A stretch of DNA of 64,000 nt from Sipunculus nudus (lineage: Eukaryota > Annelida > Sipuncula > Golfingiida > Sipunculidae). The DNA lies in NCBI GenBank assembly GCA_026874595.1, contig CM049316.1, positions 54,569,676-54,633,675 of the forward strand, in the 5' to 3' direction. Shown one piece after another: positions 36-60,100 of this stretch. The notes under the pieces are model-generated. The model did not search any database, was not told the origin of the DNA, and worked only from the letters and a program-made list of their open reading frames with translations. A program made the position numbers and the translations under genes. The first letter of the stretch is position 1, and every line of letters begins with the position of its first letter.

Positions 36-36
<1 letters not shown>

Positions 37-1282
37 ATCCCCAGACAAACCCGGGATACTATGGTTTCATGATGGTCCCGCCGCCGCTGCCGCCGCCGCA
101 GAAAAACCTTGTGAGCAGGATAACTCAAAAAATATTTCACTGATCTTTTTCAAACTTTACATTTGTATAGATATAGGTAAGGGGACGAAGCCTATTTAAA
201 ATGGGGTCATAACCTATGCTAGGAGAGTGACCTTGACCTTGAATAGGTTCATTTTTGCTGAAAATAACACAAATTCTTTAATATCTTAAGTAAGCTTGCA
301 TGGACTGGTCCAAAAATCAAGGTGACTGAAGATCTTGGATAGCCTTGTGATATACCGGAAACTAGTGGCGCCACCTATTATCCTTTACTTGTTTTTACGC
401 CTTTTAATACCCCCATAATTGCCACTTGACAGTACTGTAAGCATTATAAGTCAAAAACTGACGGACAGAATTCTTTCATATTATGCACATGTAGAGAGAT
501 GGGTTATGGGATGAGGTCTATTTACATTTGGGTCATGACCTTTACCATGAGAGTGGCCTTGACCTTTAATGTGTCCATATTTGGTGAAAATCACACACCT
601 CTTATGATATCTCCAGTGTTGATAGCCATATGGATTTCAAACGTGACTTATGTATTGCCCACCACTAAAGTAAGAACCCTATAGGTTCTAGGGTCATGAG
701 GTCAAAGGTCAAGGTCACTCGACTCTCATCTTAAAAGATACTGTGGATGCATTTTAAGCCAAACTTTCATCCCAGGTCTTCCACCTCGAATATATAGCTC
801 ACTTGCCAATAGTGGATGATCCATATCAATTTTGGGGTCACAAGGTCAAAGGTCAAGGCCACAGGAGCTATCTGTCAAAAAATTAGTTTCTGGATGATAA
901 TTCCTGCTTTAATTGATGTATTAATTTCAAACGTGACTTATATATGTCCCATTGAAAAAGCAAGACTCCAATTAATTTTGGGGTCATGGGGTCAAAGGTC
1001 AAGGTCACAGGACACATCTTTAAAAAGATTGTGGATGCATTTTCAGCCAAACATTTCATCTCAGATCTTTCATCTTGCACATATAATTCACCTACCAAGA
1101 GAGGAAGAACCCTATCAATTTTGAGGTCACAAGGTCAAATTGTGGATTGATAGATGGAAGAAACAATAATTGCTTGCCAAGTGTCAGGATATGCTGCTAA
1201 AAATGGGGGCCTATTCTTAAAGGGGGAGGGCTGTACTATGTCTGGGGATACTCTGGCACCTGCGGTGCCAAGATATGTCTAG
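36..1282 (+). mobile_element. Family A Helentron-like element, copy 1
   Basis: The 5' arm GTATCCCCAGACA (35-47) is exactly repeated in inverse as TGTCTGGGGATAC at 1239-1251. A CCG/GCC microsatellite follows the 5' end. Downstream of the 3' arm is a hairpin GGCACC-TGC-GGTGCC (1255-1269) and the terminus ATATGTCTAG followed by a T run. The body holds units with AGGTCA direct repeats. No protein-coding region. An AT dinucleotide run fills 1-30. Confidence 0.7.
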
Positions 1283-1379
1283 TTTTTTTTTGTTTTTTTT
1301 TTGGGGGGGGGGGGGGATATCTAAAGCTTAGCAAACAAAATCTTGGATTCACTTGGAATGATCAGTGCATCTGTTTCAG

Positions 1380-4700: not shown

Positions 4701-7700
4701 AGATCAATGTGATAACATGTTGACACAAGCATTCAGATCTGTACTGTGATTCAGCTTGCTGCTTCTAAACTTGTCACATTAGCGGAGCAGGTCATTTGAA
4801 TCGTCTTTGAAACGGTTTGAAACCACCTCCTGAGCTGGATTCAAACTGTTTTAGCCAAATCAGTTAGTAAACGCTTTGGACGGAAGTGTGAATGTTCAAT
4901 TCGCACTAAAACTGTTGAAACTATTTTGCATATGCCTTGTGAAAGGGGTTTTAATGTACTGTATTTACCTTGTTGTAACTTGTAACTTAAACTAATATGA
5001 GAAATAATCCTCAGATAAGCCTCAACAAAATTAATTATATTTTCCTTGTAAAATAACTGTTTCGTTTGTTGTGGATTTAATGGGGAAAGCTTATTAAGGA
5101 ACATTTTGAATCTATTCCAACTCAGAACCAAACAAATACATTTAACAAGATAGCTGTAATAACTGTTCTTTGGACCAAGTACTGAATATGAAGGATGTCT
5201 GACTCAGTTTACATATCTTAATACTATCAGCGAATAATATTGGTATGAACAGCTAAAGTTGAGTTTATGAATAAGAAATTAAAATTAATGATCAAATATC
5301 ATCCAGTTTCACTGTATACAGTACAGGGAGACTGAAATGAGTTAGCTTTGAGTAAGACAGTTAAATATAATCACACTGTACCTGTCATTTCAAAGAAAAA
5401 TAAAATTTTAATGTTTAGGCAAAAAAAAGGTATGGTTTTCAGGCACCGCCCACGTCAGTTTTAATCCCCTGCATCAAAAATTTTTATTTTCAATGGAAGC
5501 ATACCAATTTAGAGCTCCAGCTGGACATTTCTTTCAAGAAGATATAATAATTTAATTTTGATCAAATATCCTTTGTTATGTAGTGCTTTTACCTGTTTAG
5601 CAAAAAAAATTCTGTTATTACCATGCTTTTCCCTGATTATATGACTTTTTTTATCCAAACACAGAAAAGGGTAAAGAAAAAAATTGCCTGCCCACATTGA
5701 TTTCTGAAAAGTGCCTGAGAACCAAACCTAATTTTTTTGGCCTTACTCAAGATAACATATAGCCCTCGACAAAATTTATATTTTCTCCATTTCCTTATTA
5801 TCTTTTTAGATTTTGTCTACAGAAGAATTTCCTAAGACTTCATGTAGTGTTTGTACAGACAGACAGACAGACCAGATCATCTCATTAGGCTTAAGGACTG
5901 GTAAGAATAATCAAACTTGCTTATTGTTTCATTTTGTGGTGTAAATTTATTTTTTGGAAAGGAAAATTTTGTTGAATGCTTAGTTTCTTACTTCTCGTGA
6001 TATGTGTGTCTTATTGACTTTATATAACTTTTGTACTGGGTTCTTAATGAAGTTAATATTGAACTTGTGAATCATGACTGTAAGAATGATGTGGTAAAAA
6101 AAAACTTCAGACTGCTCTCTGCTCATCAATACTGCTGTCCTTGGACCTTTTGTCTTCAGTGATGATACAGTTCCCTAAGTTAACAGTGGCGTCAAAATCT
6201 TCAAGGGGGGGGGGGGGGGGGGGGGAACAAGTTAAAAACAAGTATAAGGTTTAAAGGATAAGGTATTATTTTTCCAGTATAGGTTAATTCTAAACCAGGT
6301 TTAAATATATAATTTTTCATAGAAAACTCAGAGGTGGAACCAAAGTCTATATTTCTAATTACTATTATAGGTATTTTATTTCCAGTTTATTAATATTATC
6401 TGAATAGCAGGGGAATGATTACATTGACCATCCCATCCCCCCCCCCCCCTCCCACCTGGCTAAAAAGTTGGAGGGGGGATATATACCCCTCCCCCTATAT
6501 TGAAGCCCCTTTAAATTACGCAACCCTATGATATAGTTTTCCATTCATAATGCACTAATTAATAGAAACTCAAACAAAAATGTGGCTTTTATAAGTATAA
6601 TCATATGTGTTTATTTATTATGAAGGTAATGGAAAGTATTTCTTGTTTAATGATTAACAGTATATCAGTACTTTTTTAAATTTTTAGGTGAAGATTATTC
6701 CATTGTAAAGTCAGGGTATTTCTCCCAGCTAAACAGCTATGTGACACAGGAAAAGTATATATGTAGGCCAGTTCTGCTCCTATAAATTGAATTATGACAC
6801 ATTATGACTGGGCTACAAGGTAAAAAAGCAATCATTTTAATCATTCTAAACACCTGCAATCCATCACAGCTACTATTTCAATACCGGTATTACACTAGAC
6901 AATGAAGCTCCTATATGAACTGCTTCAACACAGCTGTTCATAATTTAAATGGTGATTTAACAGCTACAGTTTAAATGCAAACATCTGAATACTTATTGGC
7001 TACTCCTTCCATAATATTACCATTATCATATTAGACATCAGAACACTAGAAGTTTGGCTCTTCAAGTCTTGGAGTGAAAACTGTGTGACATGTAGTCCGG
7101 CAAATCCTGTGAACCAAGGGACTACACCATTGATCATCCAAAAGCTTTTGCTTGCCTCTGCAAGATTTATTCAAGATTATATTCTTAATTTTTAACTGGT
7201 ACTTGTATTTATTTATCAGCAGATGAACCAGGACTGAATGTTGAAGTTGATATAATTGAAAGTTCCTGGTCTGAGGGCTCACAGGACTACACCATACCTA
7301 GCTCCAACACTGAGGAACAGGTAATTACCTTTGCACTAGCATTTTACCCATTCTTTATTTGGAGTTTTATTTCAAATACAGTACACAGCATTATAAAGTC
7401 GATGGCTGGATTTATTGTCATAGTTTTTGATAGATGGTGCTGTGACAGCCCTGTCTTGAAATAATTCTCAGGATTTATAGAAAAGTATGGATGATGGCTG
7501 CCCTAAGATAGAATTCCTGACACTCTAAGACAAAAAACAGGCATTTTTAGCTCAGCTGACTATAAGTCATCTGAGCTATAGTCGTGGTCCATTTCCCCCG
7601 TCCGTCTGTCCGTCCGTCCGTCCTTCACGTTTTAAAACCGTAAGACCTAGGAATCCAAAATTCAGCATAGTGTTAGATGTCCCCAAGATCTCCTACCAAG

Positions 7701-10700
7701 CCGAAAACTAGGTCATTGTGACTTCGTTCCTTTGAGAAATTAAGGAAAAACCTCAATTTTTAGCGAACCTGTGAGCTTATGCGATGGCGCAGCGTCGGCC
7801 GTCCGTCGTCAGCCGTCCGCCGTCCAGGGCTGGCTTTCCGCCGTCCATGGCTGTAAGTCAGAAACTGTCGGAGCTAGCAGCTCCAAATTACATGTAAGAA
7901 TTCCTCACACGTGAAACTTGGTGCCCTGGAGCTTATTATTGGGTATCTGCATTAATTTAGATTTTATACAGAAAAAGCTTAAAAACCTTTAAAAATCTTC
8001 TTCTCTGAAATTGTCCAGCCAAATTGTCCAATATTTCACAGAAATGATCTCTGGAACAAACTCTTTCAAGTTTGTTTGAATGGTTCCAGTTCGGAGAGTT
8101 TTGGCCGAGTTACAGGAGGTTGAACTTAGTCATCTGTCCAAAAAAGCACACTAAAATAAAAATCTCAGAAACGGCTAGAGCTATAATGACCAAATTTTAA
8201 ACCAATGTTTGTCACATATGTCATATCTGATTTTGAGGTATTGGTGGCGCCACCTACATTGATGTGTTTTTTACAAGCGAAAATGTAATTTTAAACTCTT
8301 CTAGCTTATACACTGATTTATGATGAAACTGTTCAGCTGATTGGTTTAAACTTTACAAGAATTATTCTATGGTAGGGTTCTGCCAGTTTTATAAGAATAG
8401 ATTGGGTAAATACAGTTTTAAAAAAGCATTGTAGCCAATTGAAAAAGGCTTTCTGTATTTGAAAACAGATTTGACTTCATGCAGCCAAGTCAAGAGGTAA
8501 CTCAGTACAAACAGGTGGGGTCCAGACATCACCATGGTAACTGACCTGGCTGGGGGGGGGGGGTGTCTAGACAATGTGTCTAGACGTCTAGACACAGCGT
8601 CTAGACGTCTGGATATAATGTTTAGATGCAGAATTCCCAGATAATTGGAACTATATCTTTCAACTGTTTGAAAAAACTTGGTTTGCATTTTAAGCAAATT
8701 GGGTTTATCATCAGGTCACATGTGAACTGCTGCACCTTCATTTTTGGTTGACCGCTGACCTTTCCTTGCTGCCCAGTGTCCATTTGTGCGTCTGTTTCCA
8801 CACACAAATCCACATATCTTGGGAACCGTTTGACCGATCAGGCTAAAACTTTTGCACAAATGTAGCCCTTTGATAGCTTTATAACATACACTAAAAATGG
8901 TGGTGCCACCTGCAACCATTTTTGCACAGCGTCCATCTGTTCATCTGCCTTGGGATAATATTACTTATATCTCAGCAGTGGTTTGACTTATCCACCTGAA
9001 ATTTTGCAGGTTTATACATCCTGGACAGCTTTCTCGATTTTATGACAGGTGGCGCCACCTACATTCACATTTACTCTGCAGACATCCAAGCTCGTATCTC
9101 GGGAACCGTTTGACCGATTGGGCCAAAATTTTGCATGTGTATAGATCTTACATAGCTCTTCATCATAGGCAAAACTGGTGGTGCCACCTGCAACCATTTA
9201 TGCACAGCGTCCATCTGTTCATCTGCCTTAGGTTAAAATCACTCATATCTCAGCAGTGGTTTGACTTTTCCACTTGAAATTTTGCAGGTATTTTACATCC
9301 TGGACAGCTTTCTCGATTTTATGATAGGTGGCGCCACCTACATTCACATTTACACTGCAGACATCCAAGCTCATATCTCTGGAACCGTTTGACTGATTGG
9401 GCAAAAATTTTGCTTGTGTATAGATCTCACATAGCTCTTCATCATAGGCAAAACTGGTGGCGCCATCTGCAACCACTTATGCACAGCGTCCATCTGTTCA
9501 TCTGCTTTGGGATAAAATCACTCATATCTCAGTAGTGGTTTGACTTATCCACCTGAAATTTTGCAGGTTTATACATCATGGACAGGTTTCTCGATTTCAT
9601 GTCAGGTGGCGCCACCTACATTCACATTTACTCTGCAGACATCCAAGCTCATATCTTGGGAACCGTTTGACCGATTAGGCCAAAATTTTGCATGTGTATA
9701 GATATCACATAGCTCTTCATCATAGGCAAAACTGGTGGTGCCACCTGCAAGCATTTATGCACAGCATCCATCTGTTCATCTGCCTTAGGTTAAATCACTC
9801 ATATCTCAGCAGTGGTTTGACTTATCCACCTGAAATTTTGCAGGTATTTTACATCCTTGACAGCTTTCTCGATTTTATGACAGGTGTCGCCACCTACATT
9901 CACATTTACTCTGCAGATATCCAAGCTCATATCTCATGAACCGTTTGACTGATTAGGCTAAAATTTTGCATGTGTATAGATCTCACATAGCTCTTGGTGC
10001 CACCTGCAACCACTTATGCACAGCATCCATCTGTTGATCTGCCATGGGATAAAATCACTCATATCTCAGCAGTGGTTTGACTTATCCACCTGAAATTTTG
10101 CAGGTTTATACATCCGATTTTATGACAGGTGGCACCACCTACATTCACGTTTAAGCTGCAGACATCCATGCTAATATGCAACACACCACGCTCTATTCCC
10201 CTTGCCACTTAATCCATGCCTCACTTCACCCGTCCCACTCTGATTTCTGCGGATACACATAGTGGCTTGTCGACTACCCATAGTTTGGTTTTAAAATGTC
10301 CTAGTCCGAAACTTGCAGGTCAGAAACATCCATTTTGCAGAAATCATAATGACTAAGGTAGATATGCAGGACTTAGGAGGATCAATATTAAATTTTAACA
10401 AGTGACCCATAGGTCATGACACTCAGCTGCCAAGCATGACCTGCGACATCATGGGCTGAGATTCACAACTTCCAGTTAAATTTTGAAGACCCAAATTGTC
10501 AATATGTTGAAATTTTCTACGACAACAGAAATATATATCACCTATGTCTGGTTAAAACACAGTGAATTTATGGTCAGAGGAAAAATATTGATTGTAAACC
10601 TATCAGCAACTATTCCCAGAGCTTGCTTGATACCTGTCAGGCTCAAAAGGAACACCACAAAGGGCAAATATAAGATCAACATATATAGCAAAAATCAAGG

Positions 10701-13700
10701 AAACCCATGCAAGAATTATTGAGAAATGGGTGCTTCTGTTTAAATTTTATTTAATACAAGCCAACTGTACTGCACCTGTATAAATGATGGTAATATTTAT
10801 TAAGAAATATTTGACCCAATCCTTTGCAAGATAAGATTAATACCGTATTTATTCTAATTTGGCGACCACTTAAAAATAATTAATTTTCTCAGAGGTCGAG
10901 ATAATGGAGGATATTTGAAAATTATCTTCATGCAGAATTTGCGGTAGTCGAGATATTAGAAGCATGCGGTTTGATAACCTTCCGTAGAGACGCAGAGCCG
11001 CTCTGACACTCGAGCGGTCATATGAATTGAGTGATAATTTGGTTGTATATAAGTTTGTTTTGTTAGCTTAACAGTATTATCTACAAACGGGCTTCCAACC
11101 GTCACATGAATTATACGCAGTCCTCAAATGATTAATCAAACTGAGCTCAATCACTTTACAAAATGATCACTACTTCGCGTATAGGTACGATCACTTGAGA
11201 TAGACGGTAACTCATGTAACCACCAGTTGTTTCAAGTTAACCCGCCAGGCGGCGATATCGGCGGGCCGAAAAGGGACAAGCAGCTGCATCAAGTTGGAAG
11301 AAGACTTTATAAAAAATAACTGCCTATTATCAGATAACTTTTATTTGCATAATACGTAATAAATATAGGAAAGTAAAGGCGCGTTAAAATATACACGACT
11401 GGAAATGGTCCTAGCTCGCGTGCCCTCAATCGGGCCCCGTTTGGTACGTGCGGTCTCCCATCCAAAAACTAACCGGGGTCATTTAAACTTAACTAAGATG
11501 ACGGTTCCACCTGTATCACAGTTGTTCCACCACGTGTGCTTTGCAGTATTTTGTAAATATTATTGCTGAAGATGCCACGTGAATTGCACATGAGGCACGT
11601 GCGTACCAGGAATGGTACACGAGTTTGCTTCGTCAAGGACACCCATTTGGTTCATGAACGCTTTATCATGTTTATATATTATGAAAAACGCATCTTTGTA
11701 TCTTCATAAATTTTATTGGAAGCAAGTTTGATGTGGATGCCCAGTGTTATAAGAATCTAGTCAGATACAAACTGCGGTGCCCGTGAGAGACGGAGGCATT
11801 TCACCTTAACATCGTCAACAGAAAACATCGTCGACAGTCGAGAAATTAGAGTCTTTTTAGAAATTATGCTTTCAAAATATTTTTTGGGGTCGAGAAATAA
11901 GAGGGATCGCCAAACTAGAATAAATACGGTATACTTCTTACTGCATTCACTTTAACAGTTCTTGAGATAATATGATCAAAAGGAATATGGTTGCCTGGTG
12001 GCCATATTCAACTTCTGACAGGTCTGAAATCAGACAACAAACGTTCTCTAAATTGGATCAAACATTGAAGAAAAATCACTGAAACTGAAACTGATTTCTA
12101 AGGTGGCTAACTGGCAGACATAATGGATTTCTGACAAGTCAGACATTTGATATCACACATCCTCCAATAAGAGACCAAACTTGGGGCAAATTCTCAAAAG
12201 GATGGTACAGTAATGAATGTCCAAAACAAATCAAGGGCATGTTAAGGCCCTCATATCAGATTTATAGATATGCAAATGTAAAAAGTGTAAGTCTGATTTT
12301 TTTTATTATAACTCTGCTTTTCAATGGGGTCAGCAGGGTAGGTAAACTGCAAAACCTGAAAGAAAGGAAATGCAGAAAGCATGACAAGAGTCTTGTAATG
12401 AAAAAAAGCCATCCTTAATCCAGGTACATATCCACATATTATGAGAACAAACACTTGCTTTTATATGTGGTGATTTATATATAAATATTCTGATATCTAG
12501 GAAACTAAGTTTATTGCTATGATTCCACAAAATAAACTGCAAAATGTTCCCATCATCTTATAAATCAGTAGCTAAACCTTAATACTATACTCTCATAGTC
12601 TTAATGCCTGGCTTAAGCATTCCGAAAACTGTGTTTTTGTTACGCAGTAACGAGGTACTTATCACTCAGCCTTATCATTTTAATAGGCTGATACAAAAGG
12701 GAGTCATATGTCACCAGTGTCACTCACAATTACAGCAACACAGTGAGATGTACCAGCTGGATTGCAATGGTTATATATATAAAAGAAAAATAGAGATGGT
12801 CTACAAAATAAGCAGGGTTCGTACGCACCTTGAAAACCTTGAGAAGTGCTTGAATTTGGTCATTTCAATTTCAATGGCTTGAAAAGTGCTTAAAAAGAGA
12901 GAGTGGTTTGGAAAAGTGCTTGAAAAATAAAATTTTGTGAAAGAGTTTGGTGTATGTTGTGTGTATGCATACCTGGTATTTTAATATCGCTTTTCGGGCA
13001 TCTCTACGTCAATCAAATGTATGAAATAGAATTAACCCAATCGTGGATGAATGAGACGATGTAACAAGTTAACATACGAGGGTAATAACCATGTTTATTA
13101 TCAAATAGTAAGTGAGCTGCTTTACTGGAAAGATCGTGGAGATTTCCCTCGAGGTACGTATAAAAAGCTCTTTAATTGAAAACTCAATCCACGCTAGGCG
13201 AGTTCACGTAAGTATTTTCGCAAGATTTATAATTTAAATTTTAAAGTAATACTACAGAGATTATTAATATGGCTATTGAGAAGATCTGTCCAAAGGAAAT
13301 AATTATCTGGGAACAAACCAGGGGAATAAAATGTGTGAAAAATACATGATGGGAACAATTCGAATCTGAGGGATAATAATAATATAAAACTAATTTGCTC
13401 AGTAGAATATGTCGTTTAAATCAAGTTAACTTTACGTTTTACATTGGTAACTCGGCGATAATTATTATATCAGAGTGGTCATATTTCCCCAACGAACCCA
13501 ATCCGACTTTGTTTTGGTTAAAGGTTTTTCAGTTTAGGCCCTATCCAAGGGTTGCGTGTTTTTTTGTTGTTGTTTTTTTTTATCTTTGTACCTGCGCATT
13601 TCACGTGTACGCGCTGTGTTCGTCATTTGTTAGCTCCATAAGACCACTGATCAGCGAAATACAGTTTACACGCGGGGTCAATCCAATTAAGGATAAATAC

Positions 13701-24375: not shown

Positions 24376-24381
24376 TTTATT
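24376..24381 (-). terminator. RPUSD2: Polyadenylation signal AATAAA (RPUSD2)
   Basis: TTTATT on the plus strand reads AATAAA on the minus strand, about 40 nt beyond the RPUSD2 stop. Position and orientation fit its 3' UTR. Confidence 0.5.
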
Positions 24382-24422
24382 ATCAAAAATATTTTCTATA
24401 CAATTATTGCAGGATGTCAGGG

Positions 24423-24497
24423 TCACCTCTCTTCAACTGGTGTCCACCCATCCACTGCCCAGTGAGGTAGATCTGTTTCATATTCCCAGTCAGGACC
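24423..24497 (-). CDS. RPUSD2: RPUSD2 last coding exon
   Basis: Reads GPDWEYETDLPHWAVDGW and then TPVEER and stop; the family C-terminus has the same Gly-Pro-x-aromatic-Glu-Tyr pattern and a Trp-Ala pair. Acceptor atttgacag, phase 0. Confidence 0.88.
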   Translation of the reverse strand, partial: GPDWEYETDLPHWAVDGWTPVEER

Positions 24498-45225: not shown

Positions 45226-45256
45226 AGATAGGCCTAATCATAATACAGTAGTCTTT

Positions 45257-47899
45257 TTAGCTCAGCTGACTATAAGTCATCTGAGCTACAGTCGTGGTCC
45301 ATTGTCCGTCGTCCGTCTGTCTGTCTGTCCGTCCATCCGTCCGTCCGTCCGTAGATGTGGCACGTTTTGAAACCACAAGACCTAGGAATCCAAAAATCAG
45401 CATAAAGTTAGATGTCCCCAAGATCTCCTACCAAGCCGAAAACTGGGTCTTTGCGACTACGTTCCTTTGAGAAATTAAGGAAAAACCTCAATTTTTTATT
45501 AAAAACCTATTTTAACACTTCAAAAGTGCCTAATATCAAAACCACTGATCTGTTTTTCCTCATATTTACCATAAATATTGCTCTATATAGTTCCTATGTA
45601 CATGCCAGAAATTATGTCTGTATTATATAATTTAAAAAAGTTATGGGCCCAAACATAATGCATTCTGTAAAAAATCAGGACAGATATTTAATCACTTAAC
45701 ACAAAACATGTTAAAGCTATGGACTTTTTTTTCCAGTAATATAACTTAAATTAATTAAAATTAAATTGTATACCCAAAATTAGATCAAAATCTTTTAAAT
45801 TTTTTAAAATATTAACAAAAATAAAAAATTGGTACCTTAAATTTTGCCCAACTTTGACCATGGCACGTTTTTTTCCTGTAAGTACTGTGGATTTAATTTT
45901 CACAGCATGTTTATGTAAGCATTTTGTCTAATAACACCAAAAATTTGAAACTAGTTGATCAAAAACTGTAGATTTTATTCAAGTTTTCAAGCACCATGTA
46001 ACATATTGTTTACATTAAGCTAGTGTTATGCAGTTTGCAAGAGCTCAGTTCCCCAGCTTCAGCTCTCAGTTCCTAAAATTTGGCATACAATTAGATGTCT
46101 CCAAAATCCCCTACCATGCCAAGAATTTGGTCACTAGAACTTAATACCTTCGAGATATTAATGAAAAACTTCATTTTTCCATTAAAAACCCATTGTTACA
46201 CTTCAAGACTGCCTAATATCAAAACCACTGGTCTGACTTTAATCATATATAATATATATATTTTTCTATACTTTCTCTATGCACATGTCAGAAATGATGT
46301 CAGTATTGTGTAATTGTTTTAAGTTATGGGCCCAAACATAATGCACTTTGTAAAAAATCAAGAAATATATTTACTCCCTTAACAAGGGGATTGCTAAGCT
46401 AGAGATTTTTTGTCAGGGATGTAACATTATTTAATCAAGATTCAGTTGAATACCCAAAATTAGTTCTGAATTTTTCAAATTTTATAAGTTATTAGTATAA
46501 ATATAAAATTAGTACCTTAAATTTTGCCCAACTTTGACCATGGCTCGTTTGTTTCCTGTGAACACTGTTGATATAATTTTCATATCATGCACACATAAGG
46601 ATTTCAGCTTTTTAGTTTAGAAAGCTGAAAGAAATTGGCCAAAAATTGTAGCTTTTATTAATGTTTTTATGAGACCATGTCAGACCTTGGCTCTCTCAAG
46701 CGCCTCCTGAGTCACCTGTATGTTGACCTTGTTGAACTTTCAGCAAATTATGCATGCTTGAGGCGAGGCATTCACTGGGGCAGCCAGGCAGCTTATGGCC
46801 AGCCACAGTTGATCCAAGTGTCCAACCCAACTCATCTAGTAGTTTTATCCAACAACATAACAATAAACAATAAATTAATAAATTTTTATTGGATTTTAAT
46901 AACAAATTAAAGAAAAATAGAAAAGGAATTTGTTAGTTTATAATAACAGGAAATTAACTTGCAGTTACTGTTAATATAAGAATCTTGTATCGATGGATAG
47001 AATGTCACATATTCCAAATAACACCATGCAGTATTTTTCAGTCCAGTTTTAATGATAAAAAAGTAAATCATTTTATTCATTACTACCGGTAATCATTAGG
47101 GATCATATGAAGGAAGTTAATGATCAACAAAGATTCAGTTGATAATATTAATCTAGATTCTTACTGTGTCTAGTGTGTACACTGATGTGAAATTAGTCCA
47201 AAATGAATATATAACATTTATTTTTTTTTAATATAAACAAAAGCCATAAAACCAGGCACTTAAAATCATTATTTAAATGTGTGAATTTTGTATATTCTGG
47301 ATTCTCAACATCATTGTTTGATGAAAACTATATAAATACCAGACATGGTGTGAATACTTTGCAATTGTATTTAAATACGAATATGAATATGTACTCCATT
47401 ATAAAATTTCTTGCATAAAGAATGGTAATTCAGGTAAAAATGAAAGTATATGAATACCAGTGCAAATACTTTCAAAATGTATTCATGAATGCATTCATGA
47501 ATATATTCTTTAATATTATTTTAATAATCTTTTCAGTTATATTTCATTTTAAAAAATCATACGATTCTCTTATTATTTTTAATAAAAATTATATTTGGGA
47601 CATTATTTGTAATTTTTTTTTAATAAATAGTTATACTCATATTATATGTTCTGCTTATAAGTTATATGGCCAAGTCAAAATCTGTTTAACAGTAGTACTC
47701 CATTTGTTAATAAAATAAATGAAATCAATCTTCTTCCCCGTCTCCAAAGGTACTATCAAAATCATACATAAGCTAAACAACAACAACTCATAATACAGCT
47801 TATATTTATTACTACACAAAACCAGCATGTGCCTCATTTCTAAATCATATTTTTTATCATACATAACAGCTGAGCGCCGTGACCCATAGGTCCCTTGTT
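45257..47899 (+). mobile_element. Family B Helentron-like element, copy 2 (uninterrupted)
   Basis: 5' end TAGCTCAGCTGAC plus a CCGT microsatellite; 3' end CAGCTGAGCGCCGTGACCC with hairpin and CTTGTTT at 47900. The arms GCTCAGCTG and CAGCTGAGC are inverse. The body has a 683-bp internal duplication (45497 and 46180). The segment 45500-47900 matches 16270-18666 closely along its whole length. Confidence 0.8.
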
Positions 47900-47983
47900 T
47901 ATATCATACAGTGTTGTGTTTGATTAAGTTTTCTTGTGTTTATGTAATGCTACATTTGCTGAGTATAAGGATATGTTTTTCAG

Positions 47984-48040
47984 GGACAGGAACTCAAGTC
48001 ATATACACCATCAGAAGTCACATCAAGGTCACAGATCACC
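47984..48040 (+). other. GALNS: GALNS 5' UTR, probably spliced
   Basis: The tract atatgtttttcag immediately before 47984 is a good acceptor, so an upstream non-coding exon is likely. The start ATG at 48041 has the context caccATGG, close to the animal consensus, and opens a clear signal peptide. I could not place the promoter or first exon; a family B element ends only about 85 bp upstream. Confidence 0.45.
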
Positions 48041-48145
48041 ATGGCAACAGGGTCAGTGCTGGTGGTGCTGGTACTGCTGATGCAGATAGTAAAATGTCAG
48101 ATTGCTCCAACCACCCCTAACTTTATAGTAATGCTGATGGATGAC
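48041..48145 (+). CDS. GALNS: GALNS exon 1: signal peptide and DD metal ligands
   Basis: Reads [20 protein letters not shown], then [15 protein letters not shown]. Hydrophobic core at residues 5-16 with likely cleavage near Cys19. Donor GATGAC|GTGAGT, phase 0. Confidence 0.93.
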
Positions 48146-51100
48146 GTGAGTAACTCACTGTTTTATTTATTTGTAATTGTATGTCAGGAAATCCTCCAGA
48201 GGTTCATGATAAAACTAGTCGTTTTTTAAAGGATAGGTCTATGGCCTGTTTGTGGCACTGTCTTTTTAATTAGGATGAAGTAATCCATGTGATAAGAATG
48301 ATATGATATTATTATTAAGCCATCTGGCCCTGGATTTCCAGGTTTAAAATGCATAGGGTTACAAATAATCAAGAAGTCATATTCCTGTTGTTAAGACAGA
48401 GGTAATCTCTGAGGTTCTATAATGAGATTTCACCATTATGCCATCAAGGCATTGGCATGGTTCAAACCGAGGACTTTCAGCTCCGAAGTCCAATGCCTGA
48501 ACCACTAGGCTATGTCCTACCCCTTAAAAAATAGAAGTTTTATGCCTTACACTAACAGTGACTCATATCAAATAGTTACTTTACCTGGATCACTAAAAAT
48601 TAAGCTTGTTGACATGAACCCTGTTACATGATTTGTTTCAGAAAACTTTCATTTAATTGTATCGCCAGACAGTCTGGAGATACTATGGTTTAGGCACGGT
48701 CGAGCCGCCGCCGCCGCCGCCGCCGCCGTGCAGCCGCCGCAGAGATTTCTTTTGGACACAATAACTCAAAAAATATTTCACGGATCTATACCAAACTTGG
48801 TATATGTATAGATATGGGTGAGAGGACGACGCCTATTTAAAATGAGGTCATGACCTCAACTAGGAGAGTGACCTTGACCTTGAATAGGTTCAATTTTGGG
48901 GAAAATCACACAAATTCTTAAATATCTCAAGAAAACTTGCATGGATTGATCCCAAAATCAAGTTGATCGAAGATCGTGGATAGGGTTGTCATGTTCCAGA
49001 AACTGGTGGCGCCACCTATTATTCTTTACTTGTTTTCATGCCATTTAATATCCCCAAAATTGCCACTTGACAGTACTGTGAGCATTATAAGTCAAAAATT
49101 AATGGACAGATTTCTTTCATATTATGCAAATATATAGATATGGGTTATGGGATGATGTTTATTTAAATTGGGGTCATGACCTTTCCTATGAGAGTGGCCT
49201 TGACCTTGAATTTTGCCATATATGGTGAAAATCACACAAAATCATTAATTTCTCAATAAGGGATGCATGCATTGGTCCAAAAATCAACTTGACCGAAGAT
49301 CTTGGATAGTGATGTCATGTACCGGAAACAGGTGGCGCCACCTGTTGTTCTTTTACTTGTTTTTGTGCCGTTTAATACCCCATCATTGCCACTTAACAGT
49401 ACATTTATAACCTGTGAGCATTATAAGTCAAAAACTAATGGACAGATTTCTTTCATATTATGCATATACATAGACATGGGTTATGGGATGATGTATATAT
49501 AAATTGGGGTCATGACCTTTCCTATTAGAGTGGCCTTGACCTTGAATATTGCCATATATGGTGAAAATTACACAAAATCATTAATATCTCAATAAGGGAT
49601 GCATGCATTGGTCCAAAAATCAACATGTTCGAAGATCTTGGAAAGTATTGTCATGTACCGGAAACAGGTGGCACCACCTGTTATTCTTTTACTTGCCACT
49701 TAACAGTATTGTGAGCATTATAAGTCAAAAACTAATGGACAGATTTCTTGCATATACATAGACATGGGTTAGGGGATGATGTATATTGAAATTTGGATCA
49801 TGACCTTTTCTATGAGAATGACCTTTTCTATGAGTGTGGTCTGATATTAATTGTTGCTGAAGATGGGGGGCCTATTCTTAAAGGGGGGGGGGGGATTAAT
49901 TGTCTGGGGATACTATGGCACAAAGAAATATCTAGTTTTTTTATGTACAATTAAAATGTATTACAATGTATTAATGAAAAAATAAGTTACTTACATGATT
50001 AATTAAAATATGGAACTTTTTCATTACCTTCCCAAGTACTCTGTTAGATGATATTAGGAGAATATCAAGAGATTATACATTTGAACTGCTTTATTTAAGA
50101 TTCTATATGATGTCAACTCTCGGGATAAAATTATTAGGTGTTTGGTACTGGTACTAGGTGTATACTACAAAATGTTAATCTTTAGGTGGGACTTAAATAA
50201 TATATTTAGAATTATCTACAGTATTTCAGGTAAGGCAATTCTTACAAAGAGAAATTGGACTTTTTTTCTGCAAAACCAATATTTAAAATTAGAGCAAATA
50301 TCAAAGGTAGACATTTTCAACTGTTGTGTTGTGCAACTGTTGTAAATGTCTTCACTTGAAAGTATATTCTGAATCTGCTATGTGTATATTTAATCACTTA
50401 TTTTTGAATGCCAGGTAATATAGGACTCAATACAGAACTGGAGAAAATTAGATGCAGATGGTGTTTAAATTTGATATATTCCATACTGATTAAATACAGT
50501 GAACTCCCGCATGACGACCACCCCCTTAACATGACCATTCCGCTAACACGACCACTTTTCTTGGTCCCAGAATTGTCTAATATAAATTATCATATAAGAA
50601 ACTTTGGTAACAGGACCACCCCGCTATCACGACCAACAACCACCTTTTTTGGTCCCGACCTTCAGATGAGCCCCCGTATTACGACCACCGGCCCGTGGCG
50701 ATAGCGGCCCGTAGAGCAGATGAAACGCTCATCGCCGAGCTTGGACTTAATAGCCCGTGATTAGTTAGCCGTACACCTGGGAAAGTTCACTTTCATCTGC
50801 CCAGCAATAGTTAGACTTGTTTATAATGCCGCCCAACCTGTTAGCCAAACTATACACATCAATAGATACTGGACTCCATGGTCCGTTACATTGTTTTGTT
50901 GAGTGCGGCTGTTAGATAAGCATAAATTTAACATATTGATCAAAAAGGAGTTTGGCAAACATAACTGACACCACACGCATACAATCAATAATGTAAAACT
51001 GTTTCAACTCACATTTTAATGATCAATCACGAACCATATAAATAACACTTAGAATTTGATATGTTCATTCTGTTCTCACCGCGTGTTCGACATCAGACCA

Positions 51101-54100
51101 TCTACATGTAAAGACCAATGCTGCAGGAATTACTTCAATGCCAACTCGTAAAAAATCTAAAAAGCTCTAGAACTCATCAAGACCGCCGAGACTCAGCCCG
51201 GTACAAGTCAAAGAAAACTAGCCACTCAGTTAGGGATTTTAAATTAAACAGGGACAACAACTTGACATTTACTTAAAATACCCATATTATCACCTGCGTT
51301 AATATTGGCAGACTAATGTACAAGCATCCCGCTAACACGACCACCCCTCTAACACGACCATTTTGCCTGGTCCCTTAGGTGGTCGCGTTAGCAGGGTTTT
51401 ACTGTATATTGCTAAGTTTCCTGGTTTGACTGTTTCACCTGACATGTAGTGTTCAAATATTTATGATACCTGTAGGTGGATAAGAAATGAAAGCAGTGAA
51501 AACTATGCAGATATTGAGATAATCATCTTTACATATTACCTCAGTAATTGAAAAAATGCAGTTAATTTTGCCAGGTGACTTTTTTTAACACATTTTCAAA
51601 ACACAAAATGAATATAAGAAATTTTTACTGGACTCCTTATATGTTCTTGTTCATTCCAGATGGGTTGGGGTGACCTTGGCACATATGGAGAACCAAACAG
51701 AGAAACGCCAAATTTAGACAAAATGGCTGCTGAGGGCACACTCTTTACTAATTTCTACTCAGCAGCTGGCATCTGCTCTCCATGTAAATACATGCCTTGT
51801 GTTGCATACTTTCCTAATATCAGGCTTGGGTCAAGTACAGGGGATCTGTACTTCAGTACAAGGACCATTACTTCAACTTTTGACAAGTACAAGTACAGAA
51901 TTATTTAGGTGTACTAGAGTACAGGAGTCGGTACTTAATCAAAGTACAAGTACTTTTATCATTTAATTCATTGTATATATCTGGAATATATACTTAAAAT
52001 GAAACAGATAGCAGAATTTGGATTCAGTGAGAAAATTCTGAAGATTCTGTAAGAACGATCAGTCTGTCTTAGTGCCTAAATATTCTGAACATCAAAAGGT
52101 TACCTCATGCTGTGTTTATGGTTAGTAGATATAAGTTTTTTTTTGGTTTAAATCTTGTACTTGACTAATACTAAATTTTTCAAGACTATTTTTTTAAGTA
52201 CAAATACAGTACAAGTACTGTACTTGGTTAAATAAACCAAGTACAAGTACAAAGCAAGTACTCATATATTTGTACTTAGGTACAAGTACATGTACTTGAC
52301 CCAAGCCTGCATTATATGGATATGTGTTCTTGATCAGAATAATTTGACCAGCTAACAACAGAAGTCACCTCTATTACACTCTTATCAGCAGTACCTAAAA
52401 ACAGCACTCGGAGATTTCTGGAGCAAGACGTCCCTAATATTTTATTATAAATGTACCCAAACCCTTTCAGTATGAGAATGCAGATATAGAAGTATTTTCA
52501 CTGACCCCCTTTTAATGCTAGTGGAAACTGCTTCCAGCACTCCTCTCTGAAATTTACATGTATGGCTTCAAAGTTTTGAGTTAAATGGCGGATATGTGAT
52601 TTAATTTTCAGAAGATAAAAAAAACATTTAGTTATTTTCTACAGTTTTATGTGTGCCAAGTAGCCACTTAAATATGCAACATCTTATTATTATATTCAAA
52701 TTATTGACCTTTATATGTGTCCTCACTCAGATCATGTTGTATTTCACATGATGAACTCTATATTCATACACATATTGCATTACTCTTGCATGACCTTTGA
52801 CCTCTTTCAGCCCGGGCCTCGCTGCTAACTGGAAGGTTACCAGTCAGAAATGGATTCTACTCAACTAATGAAAAAGCCAAGAATTGTATGTTCATTTTTG
52901 TGAAATATTTAAATTTTCATTACATTAGGTATAAGAATGGTGCGAATGGTCTCTGAATTCCAATTATATATTTCAAATGAAAAAGCTATGAATTTGCATT
53001 TATACAGATATTGAACATTTTAACAGTGAGTTTGTGATTTGAGTTATATTTCTAGTGGTTATGTAAGAAACATTTGGGGTCTTTATTCTCACTAATTGAG
53101 GTCCTCAGTTGGGATGTTTCTTTGTAAGTTATCACTAATTATATTATTTTTATTCTTTGATGATAAATTTATTATGAAACATTTGTTTTTCTGTTTTGTT
53201 TTATTAACAGCCTATTTGCCACAAGAGGTGACTGGTGGTATCATTGACTCTGAAGTGCTCTTTTCTGAAGTTCTCAGGGACCATGGCTATAAGAACAAAA
53301 TCATAGGAAAGTGGTAAGGCACTGCAGGGCTATTGTCAGTAAAATTTAGTATACTGAATTGATCTATTAAACACGATAATAAAGAAAGAGTAAAAAAGTA
53401 TGTGACCCCTTAGTGCATACTCTGCATACCCTTAGTGGAGAACAACAGTATCCATGGTTTATACATGACAAAAAAGACTTGGTGATCAATTGATATCTTC
53501 AGAAAAGGGAAACTTTAAGAACAAACCATAGCATCTGTAACAAACGCTGAACCCTTTCATGATTTGAGAAATATTGAATAATTTCTGACTCTTTTATGTA
53601 ATATAGATTCCTTTGGGTTTTGCCCCACCCCGAGTTTCCAAGGCCCTTTCAGGAGTTCCCACAAAGGTCCAAATATTAAAAGTTTTCCTTAAAAGCTGCT
53701 GCCTCACTCTGTCCCTGGGAGTCTTTTCACAGTTAAGTTCTGACAAACCTGCTTTTTAAGGCCCCATGGGGAGTTCAGGAAAAAAGTCCAGATTTTCAAA
53801 ATTTGTTTCATTTTATGGGCAAGGCAATAAGAATGGGATTTATCGTACATTTTTAATGGTAATTACTGACCTTTTGATGCAAGTTATTTTTTTTTTTCAG
53901 GCATTTGGGACATTTACCTCAGTTTTTACCGCTACGTCATGGCTTTCATCAGTGGTTCGGTGCACCAGATTGTCACTACCACTGGGATGGCAAGGTTATA
54001 CCAAATATCCCTGTGTATAAAGACAACCTGATGCAGGGCAGGTCAGTGTGACCTCAAACTCTGTAATATCACCAGGCAACATTGGTGACTATTGTAAAGT

Positions 54101-57100
54101 TGTCAATTTTTTTTATTGAAGTTTTCACCATTTAAAAAGTAAAAACACTTAAAAAGCCTGTGTTAAAGTGTTTTTCATTTTGAAAAATCCCGAAATATTA
54201 GTGTGTATGTATGTAGTCTCCAGACAGATGATCCATGATGAAAATGTGTGTATCAGGATATTCTTTTTTTTCTAAAAGAATTTCATTTTGTCTTTCGTTT
54301 TGTCAAAGTGGTCAGATTGATATTTATATTAAACTTTTGAATTCTGACATTATTGACCAACAATTTTAATGAAATAACATTAATGCTCTTTTTTTGGACA
54401 AAGCAAAGAGTTTACGTCAGGTGATTACTATATACCAGTGCCTTTAGTATTGAATATTTTATGTATAAACCAACTCATGTGATAAGTTGTATTTTTTTCC
54501 TTTAAGTATGATGGAGCTTCTAAGACTGAAGTTCTAATATGTACAATCTTGAGTGATAAGTTGTATTTATTTTCTTACAGGTATTATGAAGATTTTAAGA
54601 TAGACCTAGACACAGGCTTGTCTAATCTTACTCAGGTTTACATTCAGGTGAGTTGGGTCAAGGGATAGAAAACTAGTTGTAAAGAGATGGGCTGCATTCA
54701 CAGGGTACTTGTGGTCATTTAAGCAATACTAATTAATCAATTATCAGGATTTGTTTTGTTCTTTATGGTTGATTTCATTTTATCCCCAGACAAAGTCGGG
54801 AGATACTATGTTATCATGACGGTCCGGCAGCCGCCGCCACCGCTGCCGCATATAAATCTTGTTGGCACGATTACTCAAAAAATATTTTACGGATCTTTAC
54901 CAAACTCGGTATATGTATAGATATGGGTGAGAGGACAAAGCCTATTAAAAATGTGGTCATGCCCTTTACTAGGAGAGTGTCCTTGACCTTGAATAGGTCC
55001 AATTTTGGGGAAAATCACACAAATTCTTAAATATCTCAAGAAATCTTGCATGGATTGATCCCAAAATCAAGTTGACCAAATTAGACCATGGATAGGGTTG
55101 TCATGTTCCAGAAACTGGTGGTGCGACCTATTATTCTTTACTTGTTTTCGTGCCTTTTTAATACCCCCAAAATTGCCACTTGACAGTACTGTGAGCATTA
55201 TAAGTAAAAAACTAATGGACAGATTTCTTTTATATTATGCATATACATAGATATGGGTTATGGGATGATGTCTATTTAAATTGCCATGGGTTCATGACCT
55301 TTCCTATACGGGTGGCCTTGACCTTGAATATTCACAAATTTTCTGAAATTCACACAAAATCTGAGATATCTCAGTAAGGGATACATGGAATTATCCAAAA
55401 ATCAAATTGACCGAAGATCTTGGATAGCTTTGTCTTTTGCAGGAGACAGGTGGTGCCACCTTGTGTCATTATCTTGTTAAAATGATGTTTAAGCAATAAC
55501 TTTGTAAGAATTTGAGGTACAGTCACCAAACCACAGGTTTGATGCATCTTATCAACAGCTAGGTCAAGTTCGAACATGGATGACCTTGATGCATTTTTCA
55601 AGGTCACAGCAGCGATTTTGCTAAAATAATATTAGGGCAATAACTCAAAAAGAATTTGTGGTACAGTCACCAAACATACAGTTTAGATGCATCTTATCAA
55701 GGGCTAGGTCAAGTCCGAATATGGATGACCTTGATGCATTTATCAAAGTCACAGAGGCGATAACGCTGAAATGATGTTAACTTTTATATCTCACTGAGGG
55801 ATGCATGGATTGGTCCAAAAATCAAATTGACATAAGATCTTTGATAGCATTGTTTTCTGTTTGTAAGGTGGCACCACCTTATGTTGTTTTCTTGCTAAAA
55901 TGATGTTTAAACGGAATAACTTTGTAAGAATTTGAGGCACAGTCACCAAACCACAAGTATGATGCATCTTTGTCAACGGCTAGGTCAAATTTGAACATGG
56001 ATGACCTTGATACATTTTTAGCTCAGCTGACTATAAGTCATCTGAGCTATAGTCATGGTCCATTGTCCGTCGTCCGCCCGTCCGTCCGTCCGTCTGGATG
56101 TCCGTCCATAAGACTGGCACGTTTCGACACCGTTGGACCTACGAATCTGAATTTCGGCATACAGTTAGATGTCCCCATAATCTCCTACCATGCCAAAAAT
56201 TGGGTCAATAGGACTTCGTTCCCCTGAGATATTAAGGAAAAACCTCAATTTTTTATTAAAAATCTATTTTCACACTTCAGGACTGCCTAAAATCAAAACC
56301 ACTCATCTGGTTATCTTCATATTTACCATAAATATTCCTCTATATAGTTCCTATGTACATGCCAGATATTAAGTCAGTATTATATAATTTAAAAAAGTTA
56401 TGGGCCCAAACATAATGGACTTTGTAAAAAAATCAGGAAGATATTTGGTCACTTAAGACCAAAAGTGTTAAAGGTAGGGACTTTTTTCCAGTAATACAAC
56501 TTATATCAATCAAAATTTAATTGTATACCAAAAATTAGATCAAAATTTGTTAAATTTTTTTAAATATTGGCAAAAATATAAAATTGGTACCTTAAATTTT
56601 GCCGAACTTTGGCCATGGCACGTTTTTTTCCTGTAAGTACTGTGGATTTAATTTTCACACCATGTATACATAAGGATTTAATCTGTTAAAATCTGAAATT
56701 TGAAAATAAAAGCAGCAAAATTAGGCTAGTTATTGAATTTTTTTTGGAGGCTCTTGTTGTATTCCCTTACATTGTCAAGCAGTCCACTTTGATGACTGTA
56801 GGTCATTCAGTGCACATCTCTATGCTCCCCAGGCTGTTGACATAATTTTAGAAGTCCCCAAAATCTCCTACCATACCGAAAATTGGGTCATTAGGACTTT
56901 GTTCAGGACTTCAAGATATTAAGGAAAAAAAACTCTGTTTTCCATAAAAAAAGCCATTGTTACACTTCAGGGCTGCCTAATATCAAAACCACTGATCTGT
57001 TTTTGATCATATTTAGGATTCACATTCTTTTATACATTTTCTATGAACATACCAAAAATTAGGTTAGTATTGGGTATTATTTTGAAGTTATGGGCCAAAA

Positions 57101-60100
57101 CATAATGCAATTTGTTAAAAAATCAGGAAATATATATACTCACATGAGAATTGCTGAACCTAGAGACTTTTTTTCAGGAATATAACTTTATTTAATCAAG
57201 ATTCAATTGTTTACCCAAAATTAGATCTGAATTTTGCAAATTTTTCAAGTTATTAGCATAAATAAAAAATCAATACCTTAAATTTTGTCCAACTTTGGCA
57301 CTGTTGATTTAATTTTCACAGCATATATACATAAGGATTTAATCTTTTAATATCTGAAATTTCAAAGAAACTGATTGGAAAGAATAGCTTTTATTCATGT
57401 TTTCATACACCATGTCAAGTGTTGTTTACATCTAGCCCACCTAGTAGTACAGCCTTCACTTGCATTATGTAACCCACCCCAGGCAGCTTGCCTTGGGTCA
57501 GCTTGGCCACTACCAGCAGGCTTCCCCTCTGCTCTGCACTCCCTCCCCCCCCCCCCCCCCCCAGATGGTGCATAAACTAGATGAATGTTATTATTTTCTG
57601 TATGTGATTCATTCTTATTCTAGGCTATGCTACATTTTAGACTTTGTATTGTACCACCAGGGTTACAATGATTAAAGTGTACATTTAATTGTGTCCACAA
57701 AGTGGTGTATTGCTATGAAAGTGTGGATGTTCATGAGATAAGTAATTCCTTACTTCAGAGGAGTAAAAACTTCACCAGGTGTGAAATTGACTATTAATTT
57801 CAGTAATTAATTAAAACTTGGATAGTAATTAGCACAATGATATTGTTTGCTTCTCATTCAACCAACAGTGTGTATACTTTATTTGAAAAGATGTTTTATT
57901 TTATCAAATTTACTGAATCTTTTATTTTATTTTGGTGAATAAAATTAAGCAGGTACTGAAAACTCCAATGTGCAAAACTTTTTAAAAGTGATTCAAGGAA
58001 TATTCTTGTAGATGCCATGTTGTGGCATTATTTTCTTTTAAATTCAGTTTAAACATTTATGATTCAAAAATAATAAAATATATGTGTATGCATAATATGA
58101 CCCAATATGAGCTACACTCTGGATATATGATGATTGCAACATTTGCAACAATTCTAATATTTTAACTTATAGTTTCAGTTTTTTACTCTGTATATATAAT
58201 GATTGCAACTTTTGCAACAATTCTAATATTTTAACTTATATTTTCAGGTTTTTTCATTTGAAATTTATAAAACCTGTAAAAAAAATGATTCAGATAAAAG
58301 CTTCTTAATGGAAAAAGTGGATATGCTTAAAAAAATAGGCTTATATATAAACTTAAATGCATTATTCCCTTGAAAGTGAAATGAAGGTATTAGTCCATTC
58401 TGTCCACTTGCCTGTCCATCTGTAAATTTTCCATCTGTAAATTTTCATACATTACAGTATCTCAAAACTTTTACTGTTTTTCTTCATGACAGTCTTGTCA
58501 GAGTATTAGTTTGCAATCATATATTTAGAACTTTACTATAACCAATTAGGAGGGCCCCTTTCCTCTTAGCTTTTCATATTCTTATATAAATGAAAAACAT
58601 TACAATAGAATATTTCTACATCCACCTTCGTGCTGCCCTCACTTTTACCTTCTCCGAACCCCATCCCAAAGTCAGCCTCAGTAAGCAAGAACAAGATGAA
58701 TCAGATATATTCATACTTTAATATTTTATATAACTATTCGTCCATAGGTACCTAATTACATGCCAGAAATTATGTCAAAATTGTGTAATATGTAGACATA
58801 GTGGGCATCACAATAATGTACCTTGTCAAGACTAAAGAGATATTGTGTCATACAGTCACAAATTCATAAATCACTTCATCAGCATAGTTAATCATAACAT
58901 CATATCTGTCAAATTAAAAGCTTGCAGACTACCATACACTTTAGATCCTTCAACAAATAGCCTTATCATCATTCTACTACTGCTTATTACTGCTGTCATT
59001 GCATTCATATTTGCTCAAATATATCACAATTTTCTACACCTCTTCAATAAATAAAAAATAAACCACTATATATGACTCTATTAATCAATCAGTCAGGTTA
59101 TTTCATTTATCATTTACTCACATATTACATTACATTCCTTTATAATAGCCCAACATGTCCATGATATTCATAAGCTTTATCGACTCGATATAGTATCACA
59201 GTGGAGAAACATTTATGGTCCAATCACGATCAGCTGAGCGCCGTGACCCATGGGTCCCTTGTTTCAAGGTCACAGCAGCAATAATGTTATTACGGCAATA
59301 ACTCAAAAAAAATTGTTGGTACAGTCTCCAAACTTACAGGTTAGATGCATCTTATCAAGGGCTGGAGGGAGGGGGGTTAATTGTCTGGGGACGTTATGGC
59401 ACCGCAGGTGCCAAGAAATATATAGTTTAATCATAAAATAGAAGACCTATAAATTGAACACCAAAGAGCTCCCCATGTGGTGTGTTTTAAATTTTACTAT
59501 GATCAATTCAAAACAATGCATAAAAGTAGTTATTTATTACTTACCATGGATATGCACTGCCTCCTGGTGCTATATAAACAATAACAATACAGGGAGCTAA
59601 TTCATGATGTATTTAAGTTGTGTTGTTCTGTACAGAAACAAGATGGGCACTTGAACCCTTTATTGAAACACCAGAGGAAACCATGATACTTTAGATGCAC
59701 TTATTAAATTTATCATATTTTTAACTCTTACTGTATCGATTTCCAGGAAGCCTTGGACTTCCTCCAGCAGCAGGCCGGTTCCGCTGAGCCGTTCATGATG
59801 TACTGGGCACCAGATGCTACACACACCCCAGTGTATGCATCAGAAAAGTTCAGGGGAAAGAGTCGCAGAGGACTGTGAGTTGTCCTGTTAATTCAGACTG
59901 GTAGTTACTGGTTCTTCTGTTACCAGTACATAAAAAAAAAACAAGCCATACCCAGCCATTCAACTGTTGGTTTGAACAGTTTCAATTAGCCTGTCTCTAT
60001 GGTGTGAAAAATCACTAAATTCATGAGTAGCTACTAAAATACATGTTAATATATCTGCCAGACCTTTATGTAGCTGATCTCTTTTCTGCAGTTTCAGGAG

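Follow-up and report, generated by a model that had tools for sequence, protein, structure and literature searches.

Shared strand orientation among non-autonomous Helentrons in the genome of Sipunculus nudus

Why should neighboring copies of unlike repeat families point the same way along the DNA? The question is raised by a 64-kb stretch of the Sipunculus nudus genome (C11:54569676-54633675, hereafter the window), in which 12 copies of four repeat families, A, B, C and D, were found, 11 of them with both ends present. As judged from their sequence organization, these repeats are non-autonomous Helentrons (HINEs), new members of a published kind. To our knowledge, target choice by Helitrons and Helentrons is an open question, and the orientation of the copies may reveal how Helentron-type elements select landing sites. 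The HINE architecture has already been published for the Pacific oyster; the sharing of orientation is the unexpected result. No report of gene- or fork-linked Helitron orientation was found in the accessible text of the open-licence literature, including PMC5371812, PMC5876387 and PMC13286980.

Orientation of the copies along one contig and in genes

The genome searched comprises 1.43 Gb in 153 contigs. Orientation was compared on one of them, contig C1 (not to be confused with element C1, the family C copy in the window), by means of exact end patterns and the first 100 places listed per family. For family B, with 36,537 places in all, 76/77 of the listed places lay on the minus strand at 0.10-1.10 Mb, followed by 23/23 on the plus strand at 1.23-2.84 Mb. 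For the other families, the places listed first (16 for D, 9 for C and 5 for A, the last oriented by its 3′ end), up to 1.16 Mb, were all on the minus strand, so that D, C and A share the first B block, and later common runs were also observed. Between 1.2 and 3 Mb, departures from the B strand were seen for D (minus at 1.55, 1.95, 2.06 and 2.93 Mb) and C (minus at 2.30, 2.32 and 2.92 Mb).

Agreement between families was assessed after same-strand hits less than 5 kb apart had been collapsed, with 200 circular shifts as the control. Cross-family pairs lay on the same strand in 112/117 cases at <20 kb, 147/169 at 20-50 kb, 212/265 at 50-100 kb and 368/459 at 100-200 kb; the circular shifts averaged 0.50-0.51, and none of the 200 attained the agreement values of the whole list. 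When the first 1.1 Mb was removed, 35/40 (<20 kb), 51/73 (20-50 kb) and 59/110 (50-100 kb) pairs agreed, values reached by 1, 3 and 61 of the 200 shifts, respectively. At longer distances the corresponding figures were 114/200 (100-200 kb; 13 shifts) and 224/383 (200-400 kb; 8 shifts). Outside the first 1.1 Mb, most of the agreement was gone past ∼50 kb, roughly the scale of a gene. Run tests on the collapsed lists for this region were weaker (reached by 85/5000 shuffles for D and 994/5000 for C).

The change of strand at about 1.2 Mb was resolved in C1:1068000-1268000. By A-D end patterns, 21/21 places were on the minus strand from 1,068,559 to 1,174,947, none was present for the following 52 kb, and 11/13 were then on the plus strand; the two minus matches after the switch, a repeat internal to an element and a place that matches only loosely, were set aside. 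Alignment to the window copies gave 11 minus and 2 plus blocks before the gap (17,982 versus 2,302 bp), a single 250-bp minus fragment within it, and 4 plus blocks after it (16,548 bp versus 0). The switch gap is occupied at C1:1185000-1222000 (L034-L038) by tandemly repeated retroelement-like segments on the minus strand.

Orientation was also compared with the strand of host genes. In the window, a GALNS-like sulfatase gene on the plus strand contains A2, A3 and B3, all on plus (3/3 sense), and a pseudouridine synthase gene on the minus strand contains element C1, Bpp and Bp, all on minus (3/3 sense); within the window, element orientation thus flips together with gene strand. The 51.6-kb exon of the former matched PF00884 and PDB entry 4fdi (an N-acetylgalactosamine-6-sulfatase chain; E 3.1e-17), and its other exons were recognized by eye. 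In the latter, PF00849 was matched on the 26.6-kb exon alone and the remaining exons were recognized by eye; this gene is probably RPUSD2-like, the name and the distal exon at ∼37.8 kb being based on sequence motifs. The Pfam scan of the window covered 10 open reading frames picked mainly outside the elements, all open reading frames having been listed, and a tRNA scan across the window at its bacterial setting returned none. A1, B1, D1, D2, B2 and Bq were left uncounted because no gene of proven extent surrounds them.

Further genes were drawn from 138 protein kinase exon matches, an intron being taken as the gap between two same-strand exon matches. Three such introns were fetched, and the one on contig C9 (L046; gene on plus) contains two D-like copies, both on plus. 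With the two window genes, this makes 8/8 intronic copies sense in three genes of known strand. Four kinase loci fall in the listed range of contig C1; three of them have neighboring copies at up to 60 kb, and 7/7 of these copies lie on the gene strand. In total, 15/15 copies agree at 6 genes; counted per gene, the agreement is 6/6 (two-sided 0.03), on a small sample that was partly chosen by eye.

Explanations for the shared orientation

The explanation to which we give somewhat better than an even chance is that HINEs, moved by Rep-helicases coded elsewhere, insert into the strand exposed by a directional host process, for which transcription is the best candidate. The mobile strand would be single-stranded on entry and would use a T-run of the strand opened by that process; a single-stranded target is suggested because of the rolling-circle chemistry of the group, as described in the part of PMC5876387 available. 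The best candidate target would be the non-template (coding) strand of a germline-transcribed unit, and copies would then be co-oriented with the transcript. Transcription is favored because coherence spans tens of kilobases outside the first 1.1 Mb of contig C1 and because copies agree with gene strand. The almost uniform minus run of the first 1.1 Mb and the plus copies beyond the 52-kb gap could reflect two long transcription units that diverge from each other, for which a piRNA (PIWI-interacting RNA)-cluster-like locus is one candidate. Such divergent units and a large replicon would account equally well for the 1.1-Mb block.

A broader proposal is put forward tentatively, at a little under even probability: insertion of animal rolling-circle transposons would be almost wholly strand-specific, into the non-template strand of DNA transcribed in the germline, and the HINE copies, tens of thousands in number, would record the direction of transcription as a fossil map that also covers long gene-free units such as piRNA-cluster-like loci.

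Several observations weigh against an origin of the orientation in transcription. On contig C1, the D copy at 2,063,550 is on the minus strand only 4.7 kb from a B copy at 2,068,212 on plus, and agreement remains slightly in excess at 100-400 kb, beyond most gene lengths, once the first 1.1 Mb is left out. Inside the minus block two plus exceptions were found: at C1:1102.6-1103.8 kb an array resembling D, next to an end of a fifth family, and at 1161.0 kb a 1.1-kb stretch aligning to Bq, though possibly just to one of the repeats that Bq contains. No host gene was recognized by eye (Pfam was not run) around the switch, where the open reading frames look mostly retroelement-like, and transcription at the switch is therefore unproven. 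In the window, Bq opposes its neighbors D1 and B1. Among the kinases, introns L047 and L048 contain no alignable copy (one palindrome in L048 could not be assigned an orientation), the copies counted on contig C1 may lie outside the gene, the 60-kb cut was chosen after the lists had been viewed, and the fourth contig C1 kinase has no copy within 60 kb, its nearest being 62.7 kb away on the opposite strand. The test covers only six genes, with one profile-matched exon for each window gene. Nor was an abundant unrelated control repeat obtained: a tRNA-derived short interspersed element pattern gave 13 copies, a second pattern 1 and an element with terminal inverted repeats (TIRs) 107, too few for strand domains. 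When k-mers of the window and the fetched loci were screened for abundant repeats other than HINEs, mainly another HINE-like family and short repeats came up.

The supply of T-runs was considered as a cause of orientation and rejected for the plus side. Outside element ends, T-runs numbered 14 against 20 A-runs to the right of the switch and 46 against 60 in GALNS, and the copies are nonetheless on plus. To the left of the switch, A-runs exceed T-runs by 166 to 85, as minus copies would need; target supply therefore helps there, which also counts against the transcription explanation.

A possible but distinctly less probable alternative is that replication-fork direction sets the strand, the single-stranded intermediate entering the lagging-strand template and the switch marking an origin. 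The bacterial IS200/IS605 elements supply a precedent, as far as the accessible text of PMC5371812 goes. The near-uniform 1.1-Mb block and its divergent switch have the size and geometry of a replicon, with no genes recognized there, and the slight surplus of agreement seen at 100-400 kb on the rest of contig C1 points the same way. Outside the block, however, coherence is mostly lost past ∼50 kb, and in the window orientation flips with gene strand inside 64 kb, which is finer than usual animal replicons.

Selection after unbiased insertion, in which antisense copies are purged for their splice or termination signals, is improbable. An orientation bias of intronic transposable elements in human genes is ascribed to selection in published abstracts, though there it acts against sense copies. 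The cross-family agreement of 112/117 exceeds the usual selection biases, four families of unlike sequence would need to cause equal antisense harm, and the bias is also present in a block without recognized genes.

The initial annotation had suggested a single active helper source for the four families, and the recent spread of all four by one active helper is very unlikely. Candidate helpers exist, and the layout is common to the families: PF14214 (Helitron-like N, Rep domain) gave 143 hits in the genome, several of them in open frames of >2,000 aa. One common helper is nevertheless not supported because none of these genes is tied to the A-D ends. The subterminal inverted repeats (subTIRs) of the families differ, most compared copies are 77-87% identical, and no autonomous element carrying the A-D ends came to light. 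The sole PF14214 gene examined was extended by 1.7 kb on each side of its estimated frame; the 3′ piece lacked all four arms, and the 5′ piece was still coding, its 5′ end being unreached.

An artefact, in which segmental or tandem duplication of a few insertions or assembly inversions created the strand blocks, has the least to recommend it: some of the listed places come in pairs separated by only 94-374 bp and the tandem retroelement-like segments at C1:1185-1222 kb lie at the switch, but the signal survives collapsing and holds across families, an assembly inversion relabels the strand of a block and cannot bring unrelated insertions into agreement, and segmental duplication is rejected for the loci seen, as the upstream flanks of the eight D loci fetched are unrelated save for one overlapping pair and a 114-bp stretch shared with that pair.

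Ends, insertion sites and internal sequence of the families

The families themselves are ordinary HINEs. All strings named in the initial annotation for its Helentron-like layout are present, and the ends occur genome-wide far above the reversed-pattern control: 8,566 versus 22 for the A arm, 3,208 versus 0 for the A 3′ end with the start of its hairpin, 36,537 versus 0 for B, 5,110 versus 0 for D and 3,208 versus 1 for C. Copies beyond those that its arms reveal are present in the form of a divergent minus-strand B group (Bq, Bp and Bpp). The elements and other features of the window are collected in Table 1; nesting was observed for B3 within A3, D1 within B1 and Bq within D1.

Table 1. Positions of repeat copies, genes and recurrent motifs in the window (IR, inverted repeat)
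Feature	Position	Strand	Description
A1	35..1286	+	Family A HINE; 5′ subTIR GTATCCCCAGACA, inner IR GGGATAC, CCG microsatellite
A1, 3′ part			Inverse arm TGTCTGGGGATAC, hairpin GGCACCTGCGGTGCC, terminus CTAGTTT
B1	7549..18667	+	Family B HINE interrupted by D1; segment 3′ of D1 93% identical to B2
D1	7762..16264	+	Family D HINE inside B1, interrupted by Bq; subTIR AGCGAACCTGTG, hairpin AGGCCTGTAGGCCT, 278-bp units
Bq	10402..16196	-	Divergent B-group HINE inside D1, opposite direction; hosts two other inserted repeats
D2	21082..23488	+	Family D HINE
Pseudouridine synthase gene	24380..37810	-	Exons at ∼24.4, 25.2, 25.8, 26.6, 28.9 and 37.8 kb
Element C1	26769..28131	-	Family C HINE; 5′ ATGCCCCCGCC and inner IR, 180-bp units, hairpin GTGTCGTTCCGACAC, CTAGTTT; between pseudouridine synthase exons, sense
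Bpp	29976..32400	-	Divergent B-group HINE with 338-bp units; no 5′ end found, 3′ end at 29976; adjoins D-like remnant; between pseudouridine synthase exons, sense
Bp	33470..34828	-	Divergent B-group HINE, end CCTAGTTTTT; between two pseudouridine synthase exons, sense
B2	45259..47901	+	Family B HINE; upstream of first GALNS exon seen
GALNS-like sulfatase gene	48040..62200	+	Exons at ∼48.0, 51.6, 54.6, 59.7 and 62.1 kb
A2	48659..49940	+	Family A HINE; broken hairpin; 336-bp tandem units; between two GALNS exons, sense
A3	54780..59432	+	Family A HINE, interrupted by B3; between two GALNS exons, sense
B3	56020..59264	+	Family B HINE inside A3 at T-run; 5′ AGCTCAGCTGA, 3′ CAGCTGAGCG..GACCCATGGGTCCCTTG
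GGTGGCGCCACC sites	365, 8243-10133, 21541, 23065, 30519-32198, 49005-49672, 55450, 55868		12-bp palindrome
AGGTCA/TCAAGGTCA sites	228, 699-1000, 15138-15850, 33773-34350		Direct repeats

A short 5′ arm with its inverse near the 3′ end had been described for each family, and the pair is present in all four, the inverse arm lying 18-38 bp inside the 3′ terminus. The 5′ arms were compared over 11-13 bp, with the 3′ terminus placed by the analyst. The match is perfect only in A1, the others having 1-4 mismatches. Among 2000 random 95-mers from the window, the number matching equally well was 0 for A1 and A2, 2 for D1, 3 for element C1, 5 for D2 and 10 for B3, and rose to 40 for A3, 42 for B2, 184 each for Bp and Bq and 862 for B1; Bpp was outside this control. 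The arms of B1, Bp and Bq, which are weak when taken alone, therefore persuade only via their relatives.

Not every copy supports the hairpin that was reported for each family. When seven 3′ ends were folded against 200 shuffles, those folding as well numbered 0 for A1 and element C1, 17 for D1, 15 for D2, 18 for Bq, 63 for B3 and 143 for Bp. The hairpin is thus strong in A1 and element C1, moderate in D1, D2 and Bq, and not above chance in B3 and Bp, so that for family B it is weak or moderate; that of A2 is broken. The termini are of the CTAGT or CTTGT type; where CTAGTTT or CTTGTTT had been reported, A3 ends in TATAGTTT. Internal tandem units, also said to be general, form arrays of 127-338-bp units in A2, A3, element C1, D1, D2, Bq, Bp and Bpp, but none is listed in A1 or B1-B3. 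An inner IR beside the 5′ arm measures 7 bp in A1, B1-B3 and element C1 and 6 bp in A2; in A3, D1 and D2 none beyond chance was found. Microsatellites could be read in the copies and are weak in D2.

Insertion into T-runs was borne out by two nested insertions whose sites were reconstructed from sister copies: for B3 in A3, ..GATGCATTTTTCAAGG.. versus ..ACATTTTT-B3-TTTCAAGG.., and for D1 in B1, ..CTCAATTTTTTATTAAAA.. versus ..CTCAATTTTT-D1-TTTTATTAAAA... Both gained the element plus three Ts net, and these would look alike whether they belong to the element or arose as a TTT duplication; any duplication could therefore be of T only. In the window together with 200 kb of contig C1, at least 5 Ts precede 15/16 exact B 5′ ends and 2/2 exact D 5′ ends.

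The 5′ ends begin AGC, GTAT or ATG after a T-run, and the 3′ ends carry CTAG in A, C and Bp and CTTG in B and D. Classical Helitrons have the consensus 5′ TC and 3′ CTRR and insert between A and T. Such an element was ruled out by the 5′ ends and the T-run insertion; CTTG in B and D is unlike CTRR, whereas CTAG fits. A miniature inverted-repeat transposable element or other TIR transposon was likewise ruled out, given the position of the inverse arm inside the 3′ end and the lack of any duplication other than a possible T in the two insertions reconstructed. In the accessible portions of two papers, parts of these repeats match both the HINE definition (PMC4067079), in which a family shares at least 11 identical bp of subTIR, and the oyster Cg_HINE elements (PMC7492417).

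Identity among the copies compared was 81-84% in A, 77-93% in B (93% being B1/B2) and 87% over 316 bp in D; by this divergence the compared copies, as a set, are not young. Internal units are common to different end types: with the elements read in one direction, A1 604-1139 can be aligned to Bp (72-75%) and to Bq (67-82%).

A fifth HINE-like end, TTGTATCCGCCAAAACAGAGTTTTGCGGATACTATG, with a layout akin to family A, was observed at L046:214-260, in L012 and L013 near 1585-1720, and at C1:1076931, 1102521 and 1231402. Inside Bq, window positions 12813-14799 hold a repeat with TIR-like ends CAGGGTTCGTAC.. and an apparent ATAAG duplication (107 exact genome matches to its 5′ end pattern), and positions 10842-11932 hold a further repeat with inverted ends TACCGTATTTATTCTA... 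A 701-aa open frame at 2461-4566, with many 9-residue repeats (27-nt units) and no Pfam match, is probably a long exon of a plus-strand gene.

Two motifs recur in the internal units. The palindrome GGTGGCGCCACC is found in the central units of A, D and Bpp, with 11 exact occurrences in the window and 0 in 100 shuffles. Across the window and the 200 kb of contig C1 there are 48 exact occurrences, and 17/26 one-mismatch forms are CpG transitions. The motif looks like a putative constrained protein-binding site, and its AGGTGGCGC half resembles a CTCF core; a text search of the literature for the string gave one bacterial chitinase paper. Direct repeats of AGGTCA of the DR1 type number 12 against 0.01 expected, and TCAAGGTCA occurs 21 times against 0.8, mostly in the central units of A, Bq and Bp; these resemble nuclear-receptor sites. 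The AGGTCA-type pattern matched one viral-collection contig, where an exact TGACCTTGACCTTTGACCT is present at 707-725 (L001, IMGVR_UViG_3300007960_003424; possibly a eukaryotic contaminant). A search of viral contigs for relatives with two family patterns returned 0 stretches.

Comparison with known systems

By description, the repeats are like the 'pearl' elements of bivalves, which combine a microsatellite with tandem core repeats. The closest likeness is to Cg_HINE of Crassostrea gigas (11 elements; Vojvoda Zeljko et al. 2020, PMC7492417), for which the accessible text describes subTIRs of 11-12 bp, an inner IR, a microsatellite (GTCY/GTCC in oyster), central tandem repeats, a 3′ palindrome, T-rich sites, several families per genome and modular reuse of repeats. 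The end sequences differ, as judged from that text, and the units here are 127-338 bp as against mostly 140-180 bp. The oyster results, in the same portion, give both orientations without a link to neighbors or genes.

The HINE/Helentron group that includes DINE-1 (Thomas et al. 2014, PMC4067079) shares with the present families subTIRs near both ends, a 3′ stem-loop, a T-rich target and probably the lack of coding capacity, again within the text available. The 3′ arm lies 18-38 bp from the end here and about 38-60 bp from it in the mite.

If orientation is fixed by transcription, as we favor, or by replication, the existing copies would provide a computable genome-wide test of the single-stranded target used, and for species that lack functional data, genome sequence alone could show in which direction forks move or the germline is transcribed. 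IS200/IS605 (PMC5371812), in the part consulted, offers the parallel of an HUH enzyme, transposition of single-stranded DNA and an orientation governed by a host process. Those elements are bacterial and replication-linked, whereas the present host is a eukaryote in which gene strand fits better outside one block; fixation by either process would connect the HUH transposons of eukaryotes with the bacterial ones coupled to forks.

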